DNA of 64,000 nucleotides, taken from Ulota crispa. Its lineage: Eukaryota; Streptophyta; Bryopsida; Orthotrichales; Orthotrichaceae. Positions 5,384 to 63,351 of this stretch are shown piece by piece. Each line of letters begins with the position of its first letter. Within the stretch, counting starts at the first letter, position 1. The notes under the pieces are model-generated. The model ran no database searches, was not told the origin of the DNA, and worked only from the letters and a program-made list of their open reading frames with translations. Location: NCBI GenBank assembly GCA_963920765.1, contig OY987251.1, positions 7,939,219 to 8,003,218 of the forward strand, written 5' to 3'. Made by a program: the position numbers and the translations under genes.

Positions 5384-5757
5384 TCTCATTTCAAGCTACA
5401 GGAGTTTCGACTCCGGCGGAATTCGGAAGCAATTGTGTAGCATTCATAGATTTGTGCAGAGATCTTTGCAGAGATTTTTGTAGAGATTTTTGCGGTGGAT
5501 TTGCCATAGAGAGAGATCGTCTCATTTCAAGCTGCAGGAATTTCGACTCTGGCGGAATTCTGAAGCAGTTGTGTAGCATTCACAGATTCTTGCAGAGATT
5601 TTTGCAGAGATTTTTATTGTGAATTTGCCATAGCGAGAGAGAGAGAGAGTTCAAGCTGCAGCAATTCGACTCCGGCGGAATTCGGAAGCAATTTTGTAGC
5701 TTACACAGATTCTTGCCGAGGTTTTTATGGTAGATTTGCCATAGAGAGAGAGAGGGT
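5384..5757 (+). repeat. Triplicated ~130-bp 5' leader segment
   Basis: Three tandem units start near 5384, 5517 and 5649. Each carries TCAAGCT(A/G)CAG, TTCGACTC(C/T)GGCGGAATTC, a TTGTGTAGC-like word, CAGAG(A/G)TTTTTG-like words, and ends GATTTGCCATAG(A/C)GAGAGAG. The last unit stops three bases before the ATG at 5761. The sequence is CT/GA-rich like a plant leader and contains no upstream ATG in a strong context. Confidence 0.8.
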
Positions 5758-5760
5758 TTC

Positions 5761-8700
5761 ATGATGGCTGTGTGTGCACTTCCGCAATTGACACTCTCGC
5801 GTGGCGTCGCCCGTGGATTTGATCAATCACGGGCGCCTCCTCCTCCGCAAAACTTCACGCTCCGAGCTCGGCCATTACCGCAGCAGCTGTGGCGATCTCA
5901 GGGTTTGTGTTCACGTTTTCGAAATCTCATCGATGTTCGGAGACCGCGGAGGACGAGGAAGTTCGTCGTCGTGGAAGCGGCGACGAGTTCGTCTGACAAA
6001 GGGAGTGGGAGTGAAGACGACGACGGCAATCGTGTGTCAATTCTCGGCAGTGATGTTCCGAAGGACCAAGTGCAAGTCGGGCTGACAGCAGCGGCGACGA
6101 TTCTGTTCTCCGTGTCGAACCGAGTGTTGTACAAAATGGCGCTCATTCCGTTGAAGGATTATCCGTTCTTTCTGGCGCAGGCGTTGACGTTCGGGTATGT
6201 GGTTGTGTATTCGTCGTTTCTGCTCGTTCGGTATCGGTCGGGGATTGTGACTCGGGAGATGCTGGCGTTGCCGAAGAAGCCGTTCGTTGCGCTTGGCGCG
6301 TTGGAAGCGCTGGGGCTTGCGGCGGGGATGGCTGCCGCGGCGAATCTCTCCGGCGCTGCCATTCCTATCTTGACTCAGGTCTTTCTTCGTCTTCTCCCGC
6401 AAACCCTAATTTCTTGAACGGAATTGTCTCGTGTTCTTGCAGATTTTGCTTGTACCTGAAATCATCTTCTCCCTAAGGTAGTCGGCTCTAAAAGCGACCG
6501 TTTAACCCCTGAACGACCTGAAGACTCTTTCCGGCCGTATGCCTATACGTGTACAATCCTATATTCTAGAGTACTTGTGTGTTGGGTGGGATTAGTTTTG
6601 GAAATGTGACAGTGTTTGGCTAGAGTTTACGCATGGGAGAGAGATTCTAAGAGTTTAGTGACCTGTCGTAATGCCAACTTACAATTACACTCTCGCAGAC
6701 CCGGAGCCCAAAGGCCGTTTAGGGGTTAACCCTTAACCCGTGAACGGCCTATTGGCCATCTCTGGCCGTATGTATGGCCGTATATATAGCCGTATTTGAG
6801 TTGCTATGAGGGCTTTCCAAAAAAAATTATGCACCCACCATCGTACAACCCTTCAATATGTATGGTTGTAACACTTAATTTCTAGCTAATTCAAAGTTTT
6901 GAATATTGATTGCGATTGTATTTGGTACCGTATCTCTAGAGCCCAAGGGCCCTTCAAGGGTTAAATGACCATAGGCATAGTATGTATATATACGCTGTCA
7001 TATAATTGGCATTTGCTACCAACAAGAAGTTTTAATTTTGAGATCTCAAGTAACTCACTAGAATCGCTTTGATCTATTTTTCAACTTCTTTGTTGATCTC
7101 AAATGGTGTGAATCAATTCCAAATACAAGAAAAACACCTTGTATTCTGTTGGTTGCAGCGGCACTTTCAAAAGTGTAGGGCTAAGCCTACCTAACTCATC
7201 AATGATAGTAATAATAGATATTTGAAGGAACATGTCACCCCTTCCTAGATAAGGAAAGCATTTACTTTGCTTGTGCCTGAAATCATGTGTCCCTAAGGTA
7301 GTTGGCTCTAAAAGCGATTATTGAAGCCTACCTACATCAATGATAGTAATGGATATTTGAAGGAACATGTCACTTATTCCTTTTTAGATAGGGAATGCAT
7401 TTAGAACATGATTGCTTTTAGAGGAGACTACCTTGCCTAAGGTTCGCTTCACACTATGGTCAACCAAGTTGAGAGGATGTGGATTGAGTGGCCAAATTTT
7501 GTTGAGAGGTTAAAGAAATGGATCAAAAATATATAATAAAATATTGTTCATGAAACCTTTGGCTGCTTTTAGTGTGAAGCCTCCAAAGGAATTTGCATGG
7601 CCTCTTAATTTGAATGAACATAGTGTGAAGCCTCCCAAGGCCAAGCCCAAGTACCAAATTTGTAACATTTTTATCAGACCTTCCAAATCTAATGGTCAAG
7701 ACCTTGTTGGTTTATTATTACCTTATGAAAAAAATTGACAAAGGCACCACATTTTTGTGTTGATAATATTTTGAAACTCAATAAAACCTAACTAAGTTGC
7801 TATTCTTAGTAGTTTGATTTTTGAAATACTCCTTCTCAAGGCTAGTTTTGGCATCAAAAATCTGATTTTAAAAAGGATTGATTATTTTTCTATTCAAGAT
7901 TTTGTACAAAGATGTACATTGCAATTTTGACCTTTTTAATGTTGAGATCCCTTGAAAATAAGCCTCTAGTACACTAGATTTTGGAGAAAAAACTACACTA
8001 GAAATCGACTTAAAAACAAAAGTATCGAACCTCAAACGAATTCAAACCCTTCCAGGAAGCTTTTGCTTATGCTCAACCATCGCTCCTCAACGAAACGTCT
8101 TTAAACGTCGAGGTTGCTCTAGAAAGTGATAACAGTCTGGAGCATCGTTCTTCTTAGAGTCTAGTTATTGAAGAAAGCTTGATGTCATTAGGGGTAGTTA
8201 CACCTTCTTCTTCACCCCATTCTTAATTTTCAGAGAATGGAGGGTTGTGGCAATCTTTCCTTGATTTTTGGAGACCCCAGTTTTTGAAGATCGAGAAGTT
8301 TTCTATTCAATCTTCACAAGAGAAGAATAGGGTGAAGAAATCTTCACATGCTAGCTAACTTTTTACTTGTGTTTGTCTCATTTTTACCCTTTACTATTTC
8401 TCCACATTTTAGACATTCTCTTGCTTTCACAGTAGCTCCTCCTACTTTATCCATTCCTTACTCTCCATTCTTCACCACCTACAAAAGGGGAGTCATACCT
8501 TCTTCCATAGAGAAGTACTCCCATTGACTCCTTTTTTCACTACTAAACTTCTCATTCTTCATAAAAGTCTCAATCTCATATAAGGTGTGTGACTACCCCT
8601 AATTGTGCCATGGTGCTATAAGAACCAATTCAAACTAGAAGTGAACGCTCTACTAAACGAAATGCTTTATCCAATGTTTATGTCCTCCTTCATTTGGTAG

Positions 8701-10168
8701 GAAACCGCCATGTCATCATTAATTTTGTTCTTAAGAGCTTTACAACATGAACCAAGGAGTTAGCTCTCCCCTTTTCTTTCTCCAACTAGGCCTAGTTGTC
8801 ATCATCAAGACGCTACTAATTATGCCTTTCTACTTCACTTGGCACTTGACTTGTGCACAGTAACTAACTGCAAAATAATACTCCTTCAAAGCTCTCCTTC
8901 AAAGCTCTCCTTTGATGCGCACTACAATTAGATGCATTCATTACCATTTCGATTGAATCCTTCTTCTTTTTTTCTTATCACCTCCATCTTACTAATACAA
9001 GTCCTACCTACATGGTGAGGTTGTTCTCACGACATGAATTGACCTAGCCCTGTGGACCAAATGCTTTGTCCAATGTTTTGTCCATGTTCATTTGGTAGGA
9101 ATTGCTAGTGAACGAAATGCTGAATTGAACATCCTATTGAACAAAACTCTTTGTTCAGTGTCTTGTCCACTTTCATTTGGTAGGAAACTGCCATGTCTAT
9201 CATTAATTTGTTCTTAAGAGTTTACAACCTAACCTTACTGTGCAACAATTACGCCTTTCTACTTCACTTAGCACCGGGTCATGCAAATAAACCAGTCATA
9301 AAATATATTGCTCCAATTAGATGCGTTTGATTACTGTTTCTATGGGGTCCCTTTTTTATTCTTGTCACCTCCATCTTACGAATACAAGTCCTATCTACAT
9401 GGTGAGGCTGCTCTCACGACATGAAACTGACTGCAACCTTGTGGATGTTTTTGTACGCAGACCTACCTAGTATGGCAACTCCTCCTCTCCGCAACAATCC
9501 TCAAGAAGCAATACTCCTTCGGACAAATCCTCGGCTGCCTACTAGTAACAGCAGGAGTGATAGTAGTAGTAACAAGCGGCTCTGGAGGCGACGTCAAAGC
9601 AGTGGGAGACTCCGGTCTCTTCTGGCCACTGATAATGATAGGCTCCACAGCCTTCTCAGCAGGGGCATCCATCATCAAGGAGTTCGTGTTCCGAGACGCA
9701 AAGACTCGTCTAAAAAACAACCAGTCCGTGGACATCTTCGTGGTGAACACGTTCGGTTCCACAGCTCAAGCACTGTTTGTTCTTTTACTACTCCCACTCC
9801 TGTCCAGTTTGAAAGGCATCCCGTTCCAACAACTCCCAGGGTATTTCAAAGAGGGTGCTGCGTGTTTTGTCAATCTTGGTGGGGGGTGTGAAGGTGCTCC
9901 TGTGGTGCCTGCTATTTATGTTGCTGTGAACCTGGCGTTTAACATTGCTAGTTTGAGTTTGTTGAAGCAGTCGTCTGCTGTGGTGTCTTCGTTGTGTACC
10001 ACTCTTGCTGTGCCGTTGTCGATTTGGGCGTTTACTTTCCCGTTGCCGTTGGTTGGGCATCCGTCGAGCTTGCCTCCGGGGTTGTTCATGGGGGCTGGTA
10101 TTCTTGTTGCTGGGTTGGCTTTTTATAACTTTTCCGGGGAGAAGCAGCAGAAGGAGATGAAGAAGTGA
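5761..10168 (+). CDS. CLT: Plastid thiol transporter, CRT-like (CLT) family
   Basis: Two exons, 5761-6378 and 9461-10168, join in phase 0 (CAG|GT ... GCAG|AC) to give about 441 residues. The first 70 or so residues are Ser/Arg-rich with no acidic residues, as in a chloroplast transit peptide. The rest is a string of hydrophobic segments, about ten predicted spans. Family landmarks visible are SNRVLYKMALIPLKDYPFF, GAAIPILTQ joined to TYLVWQLLLSATILKKQYS, and the late KQSSAVVSSLCTTLAVPLSI. Plant CLTs, relatives of the malaria chloroquine-resistance transporter, are known to move glutathione and gamma-glutamylcysteine across the plastid envelope. The substrate here is inferred from the family. 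Two adjacent ATGs open the frame; the first is used here. The 3.1-kb intron is full of repeats, and repeats also sit in the leader and after the stop. Confidence 0.92.
6506..6725. mobile_element. TTAA-bounded short element in the CLT intron (first of a pair)
   Basis: TTAA at 6502-6505 is followed by CCCCTGAACGACC. The right end reads GGCCGTTTAGGGG followed by TTAA at 6726-6729. The ends are imperfect inverted repeats beginning CCCC, and the target site is TTAA, as in piggyBac-type elements. No protein is encoded. The next element starts a few bases on. Confidence 0.6.
6737..6960. mobile_element. TTAA-bounded short element in the CLT intron (second of a pair)
   Basis: It begins CCCGTGAACGGCC after TTAA at 6733-6736 and ends GGGCCCTTCAAGGG before TTAA at 6961-6964. 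It is nearly the same size as its neighbour and is rich in GGCCGTAT words. The flanking sequence at about 6975-7135 is related to 56575-56730. Confidence 0.55.
6965..8649. repeat. CLT intron interior with small duplicated segments
   Basis: The 50-bp stretch at about 6440-6500 (TGCTTGTACCTGAAATCAT ... GGCTCTAAAAGCGA) recurs at about 7262-7320. An inverted relative (GCTTTTAGAGGAGACTACC) lies at about 7405-7440. The segment near 6975-7135, with GGCATTTGCTACCAACAAG, is related to 56575-56730. No exon is visible. Confidence 0.5.
8650..9432. repeat. Tandem ~390-bp duplication abutting the CLT 3' splice site
   Basis: The unit runs from AACGAAATGC/CCAAATGCTTTGTCCAATG through TTCATTTGGTAGGAA and TAATTTGTTCTTAAGAG to CATGGTGAGG(T/C)TG(T/C)TCTCACG. 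The first copy is about 8650-9050 and the second about 9050-9432. The second ends just before the exon 2 acceptor (exon from 9461), and it contains a small internal repeat of its own. Confidence 0.7.
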
Positions 10169-30454: not shown

Positions 30455-31597
30455 CCCTTTAAAGATCACACACATTTTCCCAAAATCCACTTGAAACAGG
30501 GGCAATAAAATTAGATGTGCATTTGAATCAAATATGGTCCCAATTTGAATAATCCAACCGTATAAATGTGAAGGACATTTTGTTTGTTGTAATATCTCAA
30601 AATTTTAGCTAGATCTATTGTTGAAGGTGCAATATTATAATGATTGAGTGAGCCGTACAAGGAAAATCTTTAATTTTTCATGCTTGTGTGGTTTTGAATG
30701 TTAACGCTTCATGCAAGCGTTGATTGAGAAGAGTCTTACATTTCTAGAAAGCAAGGTTTTCCACCTTTCCAACAAGACCGGTTTCACACAAAATAGACAA
30801 AAATAGCAATCACAAGGTATAGCTAAGTGGACAAAAAGGGTCAAAAATCCCATTTTCTATGCTACCCTAAAATGGTTCTACAAGAAATCTGATAATTGTT
30901 ATGGAAAATCCAATCAGTGAAAGCAATCAAGAATTGCCCTTAAACGTAGGATTAAATTTTTAAAAAATAAAATGATAGTACCATTTCAATGGATTCTCAA
31001 ATACTACAATTGTACTACTATTGTATAGAGAAACAATACAAGCATATTCCTTAAGCAATTTGAAATTTTTTAAGATTTCACAATTGAAATGTGGCATTCT
31101 TCTTGGATGTTTGATGTTCAGTTAGGCCTCTCTTATTGCATATTCCCTATTTGCATAACTACTTGGAGTTCTTAAATTGCATACTCTCTATGTGCATAAA
31201 GTGTGGTCCCGTAATCATGGATGGAGTTATTTTTGTCAAAGTGGGACCACCAAAGTACAATGTCACCAATAGTAAATGTGCTTGAACCTCTTTGTGTGCA
31301 TACTATTAAAAAAACTTCCCACCGTTCCCATGCAATAAGCAAGGTTTGAGTGTATTGTGTTGTTGCTTTGATCCATCTTTGACCAAATATGGATACGTAT
31401 TTTGAGGCCATGATGTATAAACACCATTATTTAACAACTCACATATATGATTCCATTGTCGTTTCTTGGGTTGGATGCAAAATTCTTGTGACCACAAGTG
31501 TTCTTCAAGATCATTTTCCAAATTATTGAGCGATTTTACTATATAGGCCAAAAACTACTCTCCCGAACCAAAATATGGTTTGGTGGTCTCTAAAGGG
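30455..31597. mobile_element. 1.14-kb TTAA-bounded element
   Basis: TTAA at 30451-30454 is followed by CCCTTTAAAGATCACAC. The right end reads GTGGTCTCTAAAGGG followed by TTAA at 31598-31601. The ends match as a 15-bp inverted repeat with two or three mismatches, and both TTAA sites are intact. It is the longest of the TTAA-bounded set. I see no transposase frame, so it is non-autonomous. Confidence 0.65.
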
Positions 31598-31601
31598 TTA
31601 A

Positions 31602-32199
31602 GCCCCTAGGAACATGGGGTGGAGCTTGAGTAATTAGTTGTGTAAACATGAGATTGGGTGTGAGACCCATAATTTGAACAATTGCTAGTGTTGTTTTAAA
31701 CATTTGTTGGTTTTGTGTACAAGAAAGGCCTCACGCATAGGGCATTCTTGTACTTAAGTCACTAGGAACATGAGCAGAGCTTGAGTAATTAGTGGTGCAA
31801 ACTTGAGTAATTAGTGGTGCAAACTTGAGTAATTAGTGGTGCAAACTTGAGTAATTAGTGGTGCAAACTTGAGATTGGTTGTGTGTAAGGCCCTTACCTT
31901 GCTTAGAGGCTTGCTTGAAGAGTCTACTAGAATGTGTCCTTTGAGTACCATTACTTAGTGTAACACCATTTTTGCAAGTTTTATTGTTGTATTCACAAGT
32001 ATAAGGGTAACCAAAAATGCAAAGGGTTATGCATAGGATTTTTTTTAGCAAGGTTGCCGTTTAACAAAACTTAATATGGAGAAATGTTTTGAATTGCAAA
32101 ATGGAAATCAAATGTGTATATTTTGAAATTTAGAATATAACTATACAATTGGATTGCACCAATAATATGTATGTATTACACACATATACACATGTGTAT
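31602..32199. repeat. Gap with a 22-bp tandem repeat
   Basis: Four near-perfect copies of ACTTGAGTAATTAGTGGTGCAA run from about 31780 to 31868; related single words occur at about 31628. No gene is visible in the rest of the gap. Confidence 0.8.
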
Positions 32200-33352: not shown

Positions 33353-34280
33353 CCCCTAAAGGACTGAGACATTTTTCAATGAAAATCACTCAAAACTGCC
33401 ACTTTTGCGGGGGTTAGTAAGTAGGTATATATATTTTTAATTTGGTAAATCCAACCATAAGATCTTGCCCTAGACTAGATTAGGTTCTTGTGGAAAAAAA
33501 ATTAGGTCATTCCAGATGGACATGAGTGAGATACTTACCTCTAAAGTGAAAAGAAAAGTTTTTTTCATGCTGCCCCAAAATTTCAAAAGCCTTTGACCAC
33601 TCTTATAACAAAAAAGTCGCTCTATGCAACTTTGCGCTTTATTTTTCCCATGTAGGAGATTGAGTTAGCTATGTGTCAAAGAATTTTCAAATCAATTGGA
33701 ACTATACAACACATGGAAAAAAATTGTAAGTAAAAAGAAGTAGAGAATGAGTCAAAACATTAAATTGTTAAGAATTTAATTATTAAAATGAAAAATGCAA
33801 ATCCCCATGGTTATAATGTTGCAATAAACAATCTCTATCCTTTGGTTTTGTTTTGTTTTCAAAATGTTGAAAATTGAGTAAAACAAAGGACTTCAAAGTT
33901 TATTTTAGAGTAGAGAATCCATAATTGCCCGCAAACAAAAACTCCTCATAACTTTCATCTCATTCATTCAAATTGAATGATTCAAAGCTTCTCACCTATT
34001 AAAAATTCTAAAGAAACAATTTCCAATTTTAATTTTAAAAAAATTAGTTTTTAAACAAGTTTTTGAGGTGCCCGGGCAGGCAGTCCTCCCCAAAATTTCA
34101 GAAATTCTTACGTAACTTCTTCAATAATTGTTGGAATGAGGAAAAAATTAGATGCCCACATAGATCTTTGAATTCCCCATCTTCAATAAAAGTTTCAAAA
34201 AATCACACAAAAGTAGCTTATCCACAGGTACATGCCCAAACTCCCACCTGTCCCCCAAAGGGACAACGATCCTTTAGGGG
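33353..34280. mobile_element. TTAA-bounded ~920-bp element, copy A
   Basis: TTAA at 33349-33352, then CCCCTAAAGGACTGAG. The right end is GATCCTTTAGGGG followed by TGAA, a decayed TTAA. The interior is shared with copies at 46102-47015 (inverse orientation) and 49581-50498: AAAACTGCCACTTTT near one end, and AGATGCCCACATAGATCTTT, ACATGCCC and TGTCCC..AAGGGACAA near the other. Two open frames of about 75 residues are conserved between copies only because the DNA is. Confidence 0.75.
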
Positions 34281-36674: not shown

Positions 36675-37256
36675 GCCCTAAAGGACCAACTGTCCCCTCA
36701 AGGGACAATTTGGATATTGGGCATGTATTTACAACTAAACTATTTTGTATGATTTTTTGAAACTTTTATGGAAGATGGGGAATTCAAAGATCTATGTGGG
36801 CATCTAATATTTTCTTCATTTTCACATTTATTGATGAATTTATGCTTGAATTTCTCAAAAACAGGGGAGGACAAGCTGCCCAAAAGCTTCTTTGAAAATT
36901 GCATTTTTTTTAAATAAAAATATGAAATAGGTTCTTTACTCTTACATATATGTGGAAAGTTTTGAATCATTTAATTTTGATCAATGAGATGAAAGTTATG
37001 AGAAGTTTTAGTTTATTGGTACATGTGGATTTTCTTGAAAGAAGTTTTTTGGTTGCCTGGCCTCTCCCATTTTTTAGAAATTCATGCATAACTTCTTCAA
37101 TAAATGTCAAAATGAAGAAAATATTAGATGCCCACATAGATCTTTGAATGCCCCATCTTCCATGATTTTTTTAGAAATTCACACAAAGTGGTCTAGTTGT
37201 AATTACATGCCCAAAATCACAACGCTCTCTCAAGGAGATAGTTGGTCCTTTAGGGG
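36675..37256. mobile_element. Fold-back TTAA-bounded element, copy D
   Basis: It is flanked by intact TTAA at 36671-36674 and 37257-37260. The left end is GCCCTAAAGGACCAACTGTC and the right GATAGTTGGTCCTTTAGGGG. Both arms (about 280 bp each) match the same end of the 920-bp elements, arranged head to head: GATCTATGTGGGCATCTAAT on the left and ATTAGATGCCCACATAGATC on the right. It is therefore a palindromic derivative of the larger family. Confidence 0.8.
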
Positions 37257-37260
37257 TTAA

Positions 37261-37332
37261 CCATTTAAGGCCAAGGGCACCCCCAATCAGGACGCTCAAT
37301 CAACCAAAATTGGCTTCCTCAGCCTTAAAGGG
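37261..37332. mobile_element. 72-bp TTAA-bounded mini-element sharing a TTAA with copy D
   Basis: It begins CCATTTAAGGCC directly after the TTAA at 37257-37260 that closes copy D, and ends GCCTTAAAGGG before TTAA at 37333-37336. The ends form an inverted repeat of about 11 bp with one mismatch. Confidence 0.6.
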
Positions 37333-39084: not shown

Positions 39085-39626
39085 TAGTAGGGGTTATGCC
39101 GTTCACTAGCAATTTTGTTCATGTGAATAAAATTTGTGTAAAACTTGGCTAAGTCACTTTGTGAACGAGCCATGACAACCTCTTGAGGTTGTGACGGCAT
39201 ATTCACTGCGGTGAACAAAAATTTGTTCACGTCCATTTGTTCATTGTTTTTTTTGAGATATTTGAAACCCCATGATAGGGGGTTTCATTTATCTCAAAAA
39301 ACGATGAACAAATGGTTGTGAACAAGTTTTTGTTCACCGGTGAATATGCTATGACAACCTTCAAAAGGTTGTCATGGGTCGTTCACGGAGTGACTTGCTT
39401 ACATTGTTCATGAATATGATTCATGTGGACAAAATAAGGGGTTTCAATTATGGCATTTTGCACAAAAATCATTCACGTGAATGAGATTTGTGAAAAATGT
39501 GGAGTGTTCACGGAGTGCACAAGCCATAATGACCTCCCGGAGATCGTCATAGCGTATTCACCGGTGAACAAAAACTCGTTCACTACCCTTCGTTCATTGT
39601 TTTTTTGAGATATATGAAACCCCTAA
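39085..39626. repeat. Large nested palindrome plus a third partial arm
   Basis: The arms at about 39090-39258 and 39275-39455 are inverted copies around a centre near 39266: GATATTTGAAACCCC left, GGGGGTTTCATTTATCTC right. Each arm itself contains small perfect palindromes: GTTCACTGCGGTGAAC, TTCACCGGTGAA, ACAACCTCTTGAGGTTGT. A third partial arm follows at about 39466-39626 in the left-arm orientation (GTTCACGGAGTG ... GATATATGAAACCCC). Confidence 0.75.
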
Positions 39627-44633: not shown

Positions 44634-44704
44634 CCCCTAAATGCCCACAACACCAGAATTTGGTGTTTATAACACTGAAATCTAACCCTGTGGGCATTTA
44701 GGGA
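44634..44704. mobile_element. 71-bp TTAA-bounded hairpin, smallest of the family
   Basis: TTAA at 44630-44633, then CCCCTAAATGCCCACA. The right arm is TGTGGGCATTTAGGGA, then TTAA at 44705-44708. The 16-bp arms are complementary with one mismatch. The loop is AT-rich and contains CCAGAATTTGG. Both TTAA sites are intact. Confidence 0.75.
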
Positions 44705-46101: not shown

Positions 46102-47015
46102 CCCTAAAGGACCATTGTCCCTTTGGGGGACCAATGCAATTTTGGGCATGTACCTTTGGATAAGCTACTTTGTGTGATTTTTTGAAATTTTTTATTGAAG
46201 GTGGGGAACTTAGAGATTTATGTGGGCATTTAATTTCTTCTTCATTTTGACATTTGGCAAAAAAGTTATGCAAGAATTCATCAAAACTAGAGGAGGAGGG
46301 GTAGTTTTTTAAAACTTGCATTTAATAAATAAATGAATTTGTAATTGTTTCTTTAAATTTTTCAATATGTGCAAAGCTTTGAATCATTCAATCTCAATTA
46401 TTGAGATGAAAGCTATGAGGATTTTTTATTTGCAGGCAATTATGGATTCTATACTCTAAAATAAACTTTGAAGTCCTTTATTTTACTAAATTTTCAATAC
46501 TTTGGAAAAAAAAAAAAAACTAAAGGAAGCAAATTGTTTATCACACATTGTAATTGTTGGGATTTGCATTTTTCATTTCAATACTTAAATTCTTAACAAT
46601 TTAGTGATTTGACTCATTCTCTACTTTTTTTTATTTACTATTTTTTTCCCATGTGTTGTATAGTTCCAACTGATTTGAAAGTTCTCCCACATATAACTAA
46701 CTTGATCTCCTACATGGGAAAATAAAAACACAACTTTGGGTAGAGCAATTTTTTTCATGTAAGAGTGGTCAAAGGCTTTTGAAATTTACTAGCAACAAGG
46801 AAAAAAACCTTTTCCCTTCACTTCAAATGTAAATATCTCCCTACTCTCTATCTAGAATGACATGATTTTTTTCCCTCAAGGACCTCTTCTAGTCTAAAGC
46901 AAGACCCTATGATTGGATTTCCAAAAATAAAATAAAAATTTACCTTCTTACTCATCCCTTAGAAGTGGCAGTTTTCAGTGATTTTGACTGAAAAATGGGC
47001 TTGGTCCTTTATGGG
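46102..47015. mobile_element. TTAA-bounded ~920-bp element, copy C (inverse)
   Basis: TTAA at 46098-46101, then CCCTAAAGGACCATTGTCCC. The right end is TTGGTCCTTTATGGG then TCAA, a decayed TTAA. The interior is the inverse of copies A and B (TTATGTGGGCATTTAAT near the left end, AAGTGGCAGTTTTCAGTGAT near the right). No transposase frame. Confidence 0.75.
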
Positions 47016-47019
47016 TCAA

Positions 47020-49580
47020 GAGTTGAGGCTCTAATGAATATGATAGTTAGTTTCACAAGGAGAAAAAGAAGCTAAAGGTGGAACATTTGGTTTTACTTTT
47101 ATCTTCATAACAAACTCCTAGCTATGTTTAAAAACTCAAGCAAAATTGACCTCATTTCCTAACCATTTTAGCTTAAAATCTTTTTGAAGCATTACAATGT
47201 ACTCTAACTTCTTACCTTAAAAAAACCTTGTTGGACATAACTTAAATACAACAATTACATCTAAAACGTTTGAAACGTATATAACTATCATGAGAAAAGA
47301 CATATTATGATACTTTGAATCTCTTTTAAGCACTTGAAGGTGAAAAATGCAAATTTTAGAGGTGTTGGCATACAAAATGTGCTTATAGGGGTGAATGCCA
47401 TACTTTAGCCAGAATTAACTAGATCTAGATTATTCAAGTGATTTTAAAATTTTAAGTTTTTCATTTAGTTCCCAATTATGCAAAATATTAGGTCTCTTAA
47501 TGTTTTAACAAAACATCAAAAAATCTCTTAATACAAAAGCAAAACATTGAGAGAGTGCTTGATGTTTTATGTATATCTCCAAAATATTAAAAAATTGGAT
47601 CATTATTTTTGGATTTAAAATTTTTCATACTATGATAACCATGACATACTTTTGTAATTCTTTGTATCATAAACCATTTTTATTTATATTTAGAATAATT
47701 CCTAGTGATATGTTCAATAAGAAAGAAATAGTATATGATTTATCACTTCAATTTTATAAATCAAGTATATATCTAAGTTATAACTACTTTTTCTAACTTC
47801 TACCAAACTTGAGGTTTACATTTTCCCAACTTCAATGACCAAAAAATATTCACTTTATGTGTAACAAGATAATCGTGTCAAAATAATGGTAGCAAAGTTG
47901 GGACCCTAATTTGTACTTAACAAGAAAACAATCGGTTTCCAATTGTTGAACAAGATAACTTTCTTAATTGAATTTGTTGGTGAGTGCTTGAAAAACCTGT
48001 CCTCCTTGGATGCTTTTTTCTTTTGAAGAAATGGACATCCAATGGTTTAAAAGATAATTTTGTTTTTTCAAATACTATAAATTGTGGAATGCCTCTGGCC
48101 ATTTCTCATCACAGAATGTTCATGTTTCCTAATTAACATGTAAAAACTTCATTAAAAAAAAATAAAAAACCAGTCAAGCAAGATACAAGTTCTTTTTCCT
48201 ATTTACTAATATTTTACATTTCTAAAATTCTGGCAGTACAAACACATTTGATAAACTTCAATAAAGTTTTACATTCAAAAATTCACAATTCTAACCTACC
48301 ATAAAAAAAACTCAAGCATTAAAACATGAACTACTTCTTTGGTGCATTTTCAAAAAAAAAAAGCTTCCAAATGGAGTGTTTAGATCATTTTTTAAAACTA
48401 TACATAGTAATTTTCTTTTCTATCCTTTTTTTTTTTTTTAAGAATGTCATATAACACAACACCAATGAAAAAAACAAATGACAAATAAAAAAAATGTAAG
48501 TAACATTTTTGCAAATTCAATATAGCACCATCATAGCTACAAACTACACTCGATGCCCTCTATTGCTTATGGATATGATGTATCAATGTCAAATCACATC
48601 ACATGCGTTAGTGTCATAAGAAAATCCAAATGCTTCCATAAAAGCAGCTCATTAACACCAATTTTTTTATGAATAATACCCATAAATAATGCCATGAAAT
48701 TGCTTAGGCAAAGGCAAATCAATGGCAGCATATAAGACATTGGTAACTCTTACGCACAAGCAAGATTGTTGTTACTTGCAAAACACTTTTTAAATTGTTG
48801 GAGTTATATATTTTTTGCTACAAATTAGCTCATACACAACTAGTGAAAATTTACATTACTCATGAGGAACCTATTCCATTGGTGTAGCTTAAAGTTTGGT
48901 TGGCTTTACAAGACAATGTCACATGCCAATGTGGCTTTTTCACCAACACAATAATTATACATATTTTCACAACTACATCTTGTTCACAATCCTAGTACAT
49001 TTAAGGGTCTAAACAAAAATGTGAGGTACTAATGACAAATTTTCAAAGAGAAATTTGATTATTTTGTAGTTGGACTTAAAGTGTTGCACTCTATGCATCT
49101 CTTATCAATGCCTCTCTAAAGTTCATTGGCAATATAATGCCATATTTAACTAATCACAAACCATCCAAAGTTCACAGGTACTCATGCAGATTTTTTTGGT
49201 GTGCAAAATCTCAAAATGTAATTACAAAGCATTGACAGACATGTCCAAATCATAATATATATGCAAAGCATGGAGAGATCTTGACACGTTCAAGGACACA
49301 AACTCCTACACATACATGTTTTGTGAGACCAAGGTCAAAAATCTTAGTTTAATTTACAAACGAGATTGGAAATGATAATATGTCCCCTATTTTGCCATTG
49401 GTACGTGGTTCTAGACTAAGTAAGGATATTGGAATCCAAATATGAATTCAGAATTCCTCAAATCAATCTCCTCATGGTAAACATCTAAACTATAAATATT
49501 ACATTTTTTGACCAACAAAAAACCAAAGTTTTTTTACCTTGGTCCACAATGACGCATGTGCAGTATACCAAGACATTTAA
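47020..49580. other. Gene-free AT-rich stretch
   Basis: About 2.5 kb with no exon, repeat boundary or regulatory motif I can support. The open frames are low-complexity and short. Confidence 0.45.
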
Positions 49581-50498
49581 CCCCTAAAGGACCACGGCCT
49601 TTATTTTGTCAAAAGAAACTCAAAACTGCCACTTTTATGGCAAATAGTAAAAAAGTTTGAAAATTGGTCTTTTTGCATATTAAACCAAAGGATCTTGTAC
49701 TAGACTAGTATAAGAATGTGTGAAAAAAAATTCAAAAACTTTGACAGCACAGATTGCAAGATATATGCGTTTAAAGTGTAAAAAACAAGCTTTTTTGCAC
49801 CTTGCATGATTAAATTATTTGACTTTGAACTTTTTTAACTTAAACTTTTTGCACCACAGAGTTTGGAATTTTATTTTTTTGTGGTAGGAAGTTGAGTTGG
49901 GAATCTTGGGAAAAAAACTAAAACAAAAAATACTTATTTTTCATTCTTTCAAAAAACATTAGGTAGAAGAAGGTATGAGATTAAACGAAAACTTAAATTG
50001 CTAACAACCTTGCAATGGAATTGAAATGCAATAACCCCAATGGTGAGATTGTTCTAGAAAGAAAAATTGGTTATGTCCAACACATTTTTAGCAAAAATAT
50101 AAAACTTGCTTTCAAAAATGAAGTTTATAAGTTATTTTTTCAAGAAGATGCTTGATTTACCCAAAAAACAAGATTGTCCATAACTTTCTCATAACTAGTC
50201 CAAATGGAATGAATCAAAGCTTCAGATGTAGACAAAGACAAAATCTATGAGAAAAAATAATTTTAAAAAAATTCAAATTTTTTTAATTTTTTTTGCTGCC
50301 CAGACTCCCCAAATTTGTGCTTATTTGGGCATAACTTTTGCTCCCTGGCATTAATTGGAATAAAAAATATATCCCCCAAAAGCTAATATGTTTTCTATTT
50401 TCAAAAAAAAGTTTCAAGAAATCAAGACAAAAATTAAGGCCATAGGTACCTGCCCAAAATCCCATTTGTCCCTTGTAGGGACAATGGTCCTTTAGGGG
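49581..50498. mobile_element. TTAA-bounded ~920-bp element, copy B (best ends)
   Basis: TTAA at 49577-49580, then CCCCTAAAGGACCACGGCC. The right end is ACAATGGTCCTTTAGGGG followed by TTAA at 50499-50502. Both target sites are intact, and the inverted repeat is CCCCTAAAGGACCA with no mismatch over 14 bp. It aligns with copy A in the same orientation. The next MITE begins only 11 bp further on. Confidence 0.8.
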
Positions 50499-50509
50499 TT
50501 AAATGTGTA

Positions 50510-62562: not shown

Positions 62563-63351
62563 CCCCTGAACGTCTTGCTAAGAAAATTTAGTATGCCTCC
62601 AACATGAAACCTTCAACACATTCTTCGAGTTTTTGGAAAGTTGAACAAGTAATCACACAATCCAAACCGGTCATTCTATATCCAACTATAAATCAAATGT
62701 TTAAAACCAATTTGATTTCAAATCCAAGTAAATCTGCACAATCCCCACCGTTGAGAATCTCATGTTTTCCAATTTGGGCAACAGTTCAAATATGGATTTT
62801 GGACTTTCATGTAATATTTTCTCAAAAAAAAAATTTACCTAATGGTTGACCCTATGAGATTGTGTCTTGCTATACTTGATGGAAAAAAAAAACTCCACAA
62901 ATGGAAAAAAAACTCCACAAATGGAAAAAAAACTCCAAAAGATATGGTCACTCAAAGTAGCTAGATTCCACTAGCTCCTTACTTTAGAGCTCTAAAACCT
63001 TGCCCAAATCAAGGAAAAAAAAAGTGACACATCACCAAACTCCTCTCTTATACAATACGACACGTGAGAGCACCCATCGCATCTGCTCTCTAAGCCGCTC
63101 TATTTGTTTCCACAAAAACATTATTCTCCTAATTGTTAAAAAAATAGAATATTCTCCATATTCCATGAAGAATTTAGAGCAAAGGAGGTTCTTCAAGGAA
63201 CAACAAGCGGATTAGAATTTTTTATTGAACTAGCAACTCCATTTGGACTTGAGTGGCAGACCAAAATTTGAGCTAAAAATGCCTCTTTTGTATACTTTCA
63301 CACCTCCAAGCACCTCCATTGGCCATATCGGGCTCTTTGGTCCTTTAGGGG
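62563..63351. mobile_element. Possible TTAA-bounded element or two joined ends
   Basis: TTAA at 62559-62562 is followed by CCCCTGAACGTC. The right end is TTGGTCCTTTAGGGG, then TTAA at 63352-63355. The left end matches the short intron elements and the right end the 920-bp family, so this may be two broken elements rather than one. A 19-bp unit (ACTCCACAAATGGAAAAAA) repeats about three times near 62890-62935. Confidence 0.4.

Follow-up and report, generated by a model that had tools for sequence, protein, structure and literature searches.

Introduction

Animal genetics relies heavily on piggyBac transposons for making insertions, and most descriptions of these elements come from animals, fungi, and protists. 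In the known reaction both element ends are bound by the transposase, the element is excised from a TTAA target that is restored, and reinsertion takes place at another TTAA. This four-base target is shared with other superfamilies, since Kolobok and Sola3 elements also make TTAA target duplications. The present work deals with a set of TTAA-associated repeats in a moss: the window, by which is meant the whole 64,000-nucleotide stretch of Ulota crispa contig OY987251.1 that was analysed, holds ten intervals which, judged from their sequences, are almost certainly miniature inverted-repeat transposable elements (MITEs; internally deleted and non-coding) of piggyBac-superfamily DNA transposons.

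The hallmarks of the superfamily are the TTAA target and terminal inverted repeats of 12–19 bp starting with CC(C/T)T (PMC2872659). A close parallel, according to the available part of that account, is found in corals: the CMITEs, like the moss elements, are bounded by TTAA and have ends of the CC(C/T)T type, one MITE family is similar in sequence to a piggyBac-like element from its own genome, and occupied and empty alleles with TTAA have been described (PMC2872659). In angiosperms, PiggyBac is one of seven MITE superfamilies grouped by terminal inverted repeat, target-site duplication, and internal sequence (PMC10004981), while repeat tables list 1,230 piggyBac elements (0.00%) in a fern (PMC6890710) and one element of 75 bp in a grass (PMC8319324). 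These three reports share with the moss the plant host and the piggyBac assignment, and the available portions of these accounts mention no transposase-bearing partner (PMC10004981, PMC6890710, PMC8319324). For bryophytes, the open-licence literature, screened by title and start of abstract and thus with subscription papers and repeat databases outside its scope, yielded no description of piggyBac parents together with their MITEs; in the available text of one moss paper the term occurs only as 'piggybacking' (PMC10619864).

Parent Elements Sharing the Ends of the Window MITEs

The type copy of the main family is a 918-bp MITE at 49581–50498 (plus strand), with CCCCTAAAGGACCA at its ends and one TTAA on either side (49577–49580 and 50499–50502). 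Coordinates are window positions throughout, unless a contig (C1–C11) or a transposase locus (L-number) is named. From the TTAA sites and the CCC-type ends, the original prediction had assigned such intervals to the piggyBac superfamily and had postulated an unseen autonomous element as their source. A search for the DDE_Tnp_1_7 domain (PF13843) in the moss's own genome (274,817,297 bases in 157 contigs, C1–C10 measuring 15.8–41.4 Mb), extended into the flanks of the loci found, led to three complete elements: E25 (C5:24506230-24515050; 8,821 bp), E38 (C8:11097233-11105479; 8,247 bp), and E26 (C9:12440864-12449385, minus strand; 8,522 bp). Each of them carries both MITE ends and a TTAA at each side, with the 14-bp CCCCTAAAGGACCA at both termini in a form that has 0–3 changes. 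Left- and right-end profiles built from the MITEs matched E25, E38, and E26 with E-values of 2.1e-37, 2e-33, and 7.7e-27 on the left and of 5e-21, 2.7e-20, and 1e-15 on the right, the latter profile also matching a fourth copy, E34 (7.5e-23), and about 350 bp of the parents' right end is common to the MITEs. Because the parents carry the same ends and the same TTAA sites, the MITEs of this family are end-retaining derivatives of elements of the E25/E38/E26 type. The superfamily assignment thereby goes beyond the TTAA/CCC hallmark from which it had been proposed: the target is TTAA, a PF13843-type transposase lies inside the element, and the terminal repeats start in the CC(C/T)T manner, with the reservation that the main family begins CCCCT and so shows CCCT only with one extra C.

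The same linkage bears on the reading that these elements are members of Kolobok or Sola3, which also duplicate TTAA, and that the genome just happens to contain piggyBac transposases as well. TTAA duplication by itself does not separate the three superfamilies. Nevertheless, the MITE ends accompany a PF13843 gene in three complete elements and beside the one end seen in E34, which largely refutes this reading for the CCCCTAAAGGACCA family and leaves it very improbable, although no search aimed at Kolobok or Sola3 proteins was made.

Predicted folding of the first 50 bases gave −15 to −25 kcal/mol for seven left ends and −0.7 to −8 kcal/mol for six right ends. In these models a hairpin-like stretch lies beside the terminal repeat on the left side only, which is an end asymmetry. 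The piggyBac element of Trichoplusia ni (structures 6x67/6x68) and piggyBat (9c0f) resemble the moss elements in transposase sequence, in the aligned catalytic aspartates, in the TTAA target, and in the short CCC repeats, as well as in asymmetric inner end regions and, putatively, in a cysteine-rich C-terminus, both of which are known for piggyBac. They differ in host, which here is a land plant, and in gene layout, the moss N-terminal coding segment being 3–4 kb away from the core. Length also differs: the moss parents measure 8.2–8.8 kb, whereas the T. ni element has 2,472 bp (PMC10803768) and the coral AmiPB1 has 3,668 bp (PMC2872659), as given in the available parts of both sources.

A first look at about 1.5 kb to either side of the domain in 30 transposase loci found near-terminal CCC ends in L009, L014, and L018 only, and an end match in L035 turned out to be unrelated. 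Ends were few at this distance because the elements are long, and those of the main family emerged once longer flanks were fetched. Among these loci, L025, L026, L034, and L038 share sequence with the window MITEs at 33353 and 46102. A palindromic element of about 400 bp (L003 225–634) was considered as a family member and dropped, as its copy in E25 is not TTAA-bounded; this palindrome is frequent, with copies in the L012, L022, E25, E38, and E34 stretches, within or near parents. Outside the left end of E38, at a distance of 80 bp, an extra exact TTAACCCCTAAAGGACCA (G000:C8:11097149-11097228) was noticed, which perhaps belongs to a truncated or nested neighbour.

The Transposase and Its Host

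At least 120 matches to PF13843, all above the curated cut-off, were found in the genome, a lower bound since scoring covered the best 116 of 528 first-look candidates; none of 14 control genomes matched this model. In E25, parts of the transposase match the piggyBac structure 6x67 (4.7e-07 and 6.3e-05) and piggyBat 9c0f (3e-05), and seven other copies also give Pfam hits. In the alignment to 6x67, aspartates of E25 stand opposite D268, D346, D447, and D450, which we take to be the catalytic positions of the piggyBac transposase. The locus L019 retains the three catalytic contexts in a single frame of 389 amino acids, and neither element ends nor an N-terminus could be assigned to this copy (E19). 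Internal stops are absent from 10 of the at least 120 matches, mostly partial ones.

Two further coding segments accompany the core. A conserved N-terminal segment is common to E25, E38, and E26 (element positions ~1,300–1,700) and lies 3–4 kb from the core (~5,400–7,200), the intervening sequence holding repeats. This interval may be an intron, and the transposase gene of the main family is probably split. Towards the C-terminus, cysteine-rich segments (CVVC..YCPSCGNKFMC..GCFQKFHE-like) occur in E26, E38, and L011, and in E25 over two frames; these were judged by eye plus one pattern, which matched E26 only, and none of the Pfam zinc models matched the transposase copies.

The transposases of this genome are diverse: of eight fragments compared, seven are 32–45% identical to the first. 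A profile of the eight retrieved 33 homologues, of which the four named ones are animal (Galleria, Solenopsis, Oryzias, and Cryptotermes; 28–33% identity), and the L043 protein retrieved 16, none with a species name. No named plant relative was therefore present among these 16 and 33 homologues, although unnamed ones may be plant. That the named relatives are animal is what would be expected if the transposase sequences were animal or protist contamination of the moss assembly. This idea is hardly credible, given that the matches are dispersed over C1–C11, of which C1–C10 are contigs of 15–41 Mb, that elements with the same ends sit among plant genes in the window, and that the named animal relatives are merely 28–33% identical. 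The host itself, taken originally for a land plant, can be recognised as a moss from the named proteins to which it is most closely related. A window open reading frame (ORF) of 740 amino acids with a VARLMGL motif has its best named relatives in Ceratodon purpureus (48% identity) and Physcomitrium patens (35 and 37%), three better-scoring and several other matches carrying no name. The window also codes for a photosystem I PsaE segment and a CRT-like transporter.

Abundance, Target Sites, and Empty Sites

Main-family ends are very abundant. The exact 18-mer TTAACCCCTAAAGGACCA occurs 3,781 + 3,774 = 7,555 times in the genome and its reversed-pattern control 0 times, such counts being of ends and not of elements. 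When TTAA is not required, the 14-mer end has 4,405 + 4,471 = 8,876 exact occurrences, and TTAA directly precedes 7,555 of them (85%). Among the first 100 TTAACCCCTAAAGGACCA places listed, 17 neighbouring pairs face inward at less than 1.3 kb (spans of 499–1,210 bp) and one faces outward.

Copies of the type element are uniform. With 49581–50498 as the query and 40 of 4,373 first-look candidates scored, the best 39 non-self matches are 85–87% identical, 28 of them spanning exactly positions 1–918, ten falling short by at most 4 end bases, and one covering 16–892; three additional partial matches reach 79–84%. This uniform identity would fit a burst of copying that was not very recent. Both flanks were read for ten copies, and the sequence beyond the targets is visibly different from copy to copy: eight are flanked by TTAA/TTAA, one by TTAT/TTAT, and one by TTAA/CTAA. 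The TTAT-flanked one is a full-length copy (L073/L074; G000:C2:27365887-27366862), which suggests occasional use of a non-TTAA target.

Empty sites were searched within the same genome by joining the flanks of 14 insertions with one target site. Matches crossing the junction were found elsewhere for three insertions (33353–34280, 30455–31597, and L002). For 33353–34280, 13 places cross the junction. Ten were fetched, and none of these is interrupted; the target reads TTAA in nine and ATAA in the tenth. For 30455–31597, which belongs to a second end family, there is one uninterrupted empty site, which lies in the window itself (31701–31807, plus strand; 79% identical to the joined flanks) and has a single TTAA at the junction. 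The right flank of this insertion is locally repeated (31601–31900), with more pieces of 28–38 bp, 89% identical, up to about 31883. The remaining 11 insertions gave no junction-crossing match among the matches listed, which means little as the best 40 of 4,977 candidates were scored. It is important to note that these empty sites are paralogous places in the same genome, which may never have been occupied. A single TTAA at the empty site, as looked for, was seen at the two window insertions, apart from the one ATAA, and not at L002; most but not all exact ends adjoin TTAA.

Evidence Weighing against the Assignment

Several observations weigh against the piggyBac assignment or against its completeness. 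At the target, 1,321 of the 8,876 exact 14-bp ends (15%) are not preceded by an exact TTAA, and for the L002 insertion, which lies outside the window, both empty sites (2/2) are uninterrupted and read CCAA; a later mutation of the target would explain the latter. In the protein, E26 lacks an equivalent of D450 (VASQ), and L043 has an asparagine at D447. As regards the parents, E25, E38, and E26 are all interrupted by stops or frame changes, and in E34 the right end alone was seen, the left end not having been reached. As all three complete copies are interrupted, the counterpart found in the CCCCTAAAGGACCA family for the postulated autonomous element is a transposase-bearing partner and not a working copy. 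Finally, no transposase element carrying both ends could be closed for CCCTTTAAAGATCAC, CCCCTGAACGACC, or CCCCTAAATGCCCA, the other types of end, and in the second family, represented by L043/L087, the right end (CCCTTTAGCGACCA) was seen and the left end was not found in 5.6 kb of further flank.

These last gaps concern the reading that the other end families (CCCTTTAAAGATCA, CCCCTGAACGACC, and the 71-bp CCCCTAAATGCCCA) owe their movement to other piggyBac transposases in this genome that are related to one another only at a distance, or to cross-mobilisation by more than one of them. Such a reading would refine the piggyBac-MITE explanation and is compatible with it. The diversity of the eight fragments favours it, and so does E09 (C3:13130266-13135284; 5,019 bp), a PF13843 gene bounded by different ends, CCCCTCATCGCCAA and CCCTTCATTGCCAA, at TTAA. 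As E09 combines other ends with a PF13843 gene of its own, several piggyBac families coexist in the genome. End-family counts are also far apart, at 7,555, 3,235, 528, and 13 exact ends: TTAACCCCTAAATGCCCA occurs 1,607 + 1,628 times, the CCCCTAAATGCCCA end adjoining TTAA having 3,235 genome occurrences, TTAACCCTTTAAAGACCA 268 + 260 times (528), and TTAACCCCTGAACGACC 6 + 7 times (13), with 0 for each reversed control. On the other side stands the lack of any closed element having those ends plus a transposase. On balance, different or shared transposases for these families are likely.

For the piggyBac-MITE explanation itself, the following course can be proposed. As inferred from piggyBac biochemistry, the transposase would bind both element ends and cut the element out of its TTAA; excision would leave the TTAA restored, and the element would be joined to a new TTAA. 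MITEs, which keep the ends, would move in trans. The N-terminal segment and the core would be joined by splicing over the repeat-holding 3–4 kb, and the family would have multiplied in past bursts and now be mostly or wholly decayed.

The Ten Intervals of the Window

All ten intervals first listed as TTAA-bounded with CCC(C/T) ends do exist, and together they occupy 5,861 of 64,000 bases (9.2%). TTAA stands at both sides in eight of them (6506–6725, 6737–6960, 30455–31597, 36675–37256, 37261–37332, 44634–44704, 49581–50498, and 62563–63351), and several ends depart from CCC(C/T), namely the starts at 36675 (GCCC), 37261 (CCAT), and 6737 (CCCG) and the far end of 44634–44704 (TCCC). Besides the type copy, the CCCCTAAAGGACCA family comprises a MITE at 33353–34280 (plus strand), which sits inside another repeat and has a decayed right target (TGAA), and one at 46102–47015 (minus strand), which is inverted, starts with CCCTAAAGG, is 79% identical to 33353–34280, and has TCAA as its right target. 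The 789-bp TTAA-bounded element at 62563–63351 (minus strand) has an exact CCCCTAAAGGACCA at 63351 and a diverged opposite end, so that its two ends match loosely (CCCCTGAACGTCTT / CCCCTAAAGGACCA).

The remaining intervals are as follows. A 582-bp MITE at 36675–37256 (plus strand) has arms of 226 nucleotides that are 82% complementary, and its right TTAA (37257–37260) is common to the neighbouring element, a TTAA-bounded mini-element of 72 bp at 37261–37332 with ends CCATTTAAGGCC and CCCTTTAAGGCT. Another TTAA-bounded mini-element, of 71 bp, lies at 44634–44704 with ends CCCCTAAATGCCCA and TCCCTAAATGCCCA. Many pairs of CCCCTAAATGCCCA ends among the listed places are about 630 bp apart, so that longer forms exist besides the mini-elements. 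Further mini-elements of 71–72 bp with CCC-type ends were noticed at L007 2649–2719, which is TTAA-bounded, and at L039 1225–1295, which has ATAA on the left. The second end family is represented by the 1,143-bp TTAA-bounded element at 30455–31597 (plus strand), with ends CCCTTTAAAGATCA and CCCTTTAGAGACCA; a relative in locus L043 is 88–90% identical and internally shorter. Two small TTAA-bounded elements adjoin each other on the plus strand: one of 220 bp at 6506–6725, with ends CCCCTGAACGAC and CCCCTAAACGGC, which lies between an ORF at 5734–6417 and the CRT-like ORF at 9431–10168, and one of 224 bp at 6737–6960.

Pairing of such ends by chance is rare. The window contains six TTAA-CC(C/A) pairs that lie within 5 kb of each other and mismatch in no more than 2 of 12 positions, while in 200 first-order Markov simulations such pairs averaged 0.01 and never exceeded 1. 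Five of the six pairs are intervals described above, and the remaining one joins the ends of different elements (33353 with 37256). When the CC condition is dropped, 15 TTAA-bounded pairs appear, seven of which have ends unlike CCC and are presumably due to chance or to other repeats. An Rfam scan of the window gave no match at the gathering threshold. Elsewhere in the window, nested inverted repeats are clustered at 39209–39623, with arms GGGGTTTC...GAAACCCC, perhaps another hairpin-type repeat.

Significance

The superfamily is a known one; what stands out here is the unusual length of the parents, the probable split gene, and a host lineage in which piggyBac seems little described. A wider picture, to be held tentatively, is that long piggyBac elements with split genes might form a clade peculiar to mosses. 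This clade would have diversified into several end families and given rise to many thousand MITEs, some as short as 71 bp, so that piggyBac would rank among the leading DNA transposons of a land-plant genome, perhaps having arrived by horizontal transfer long ago. The present elements show that a family familiar above all from animals has proliferated in a land plant, too. Several thousand repeats, which might go unclassified with a standard library of plant repeats, receive a name here. A moss genome with readable parents, MITEs, targets, and empty sites offers a plant-resident pairing of ends and transposase to study, and comparisons between moss genomes can now test where the piggyBac elements of land plants come from.
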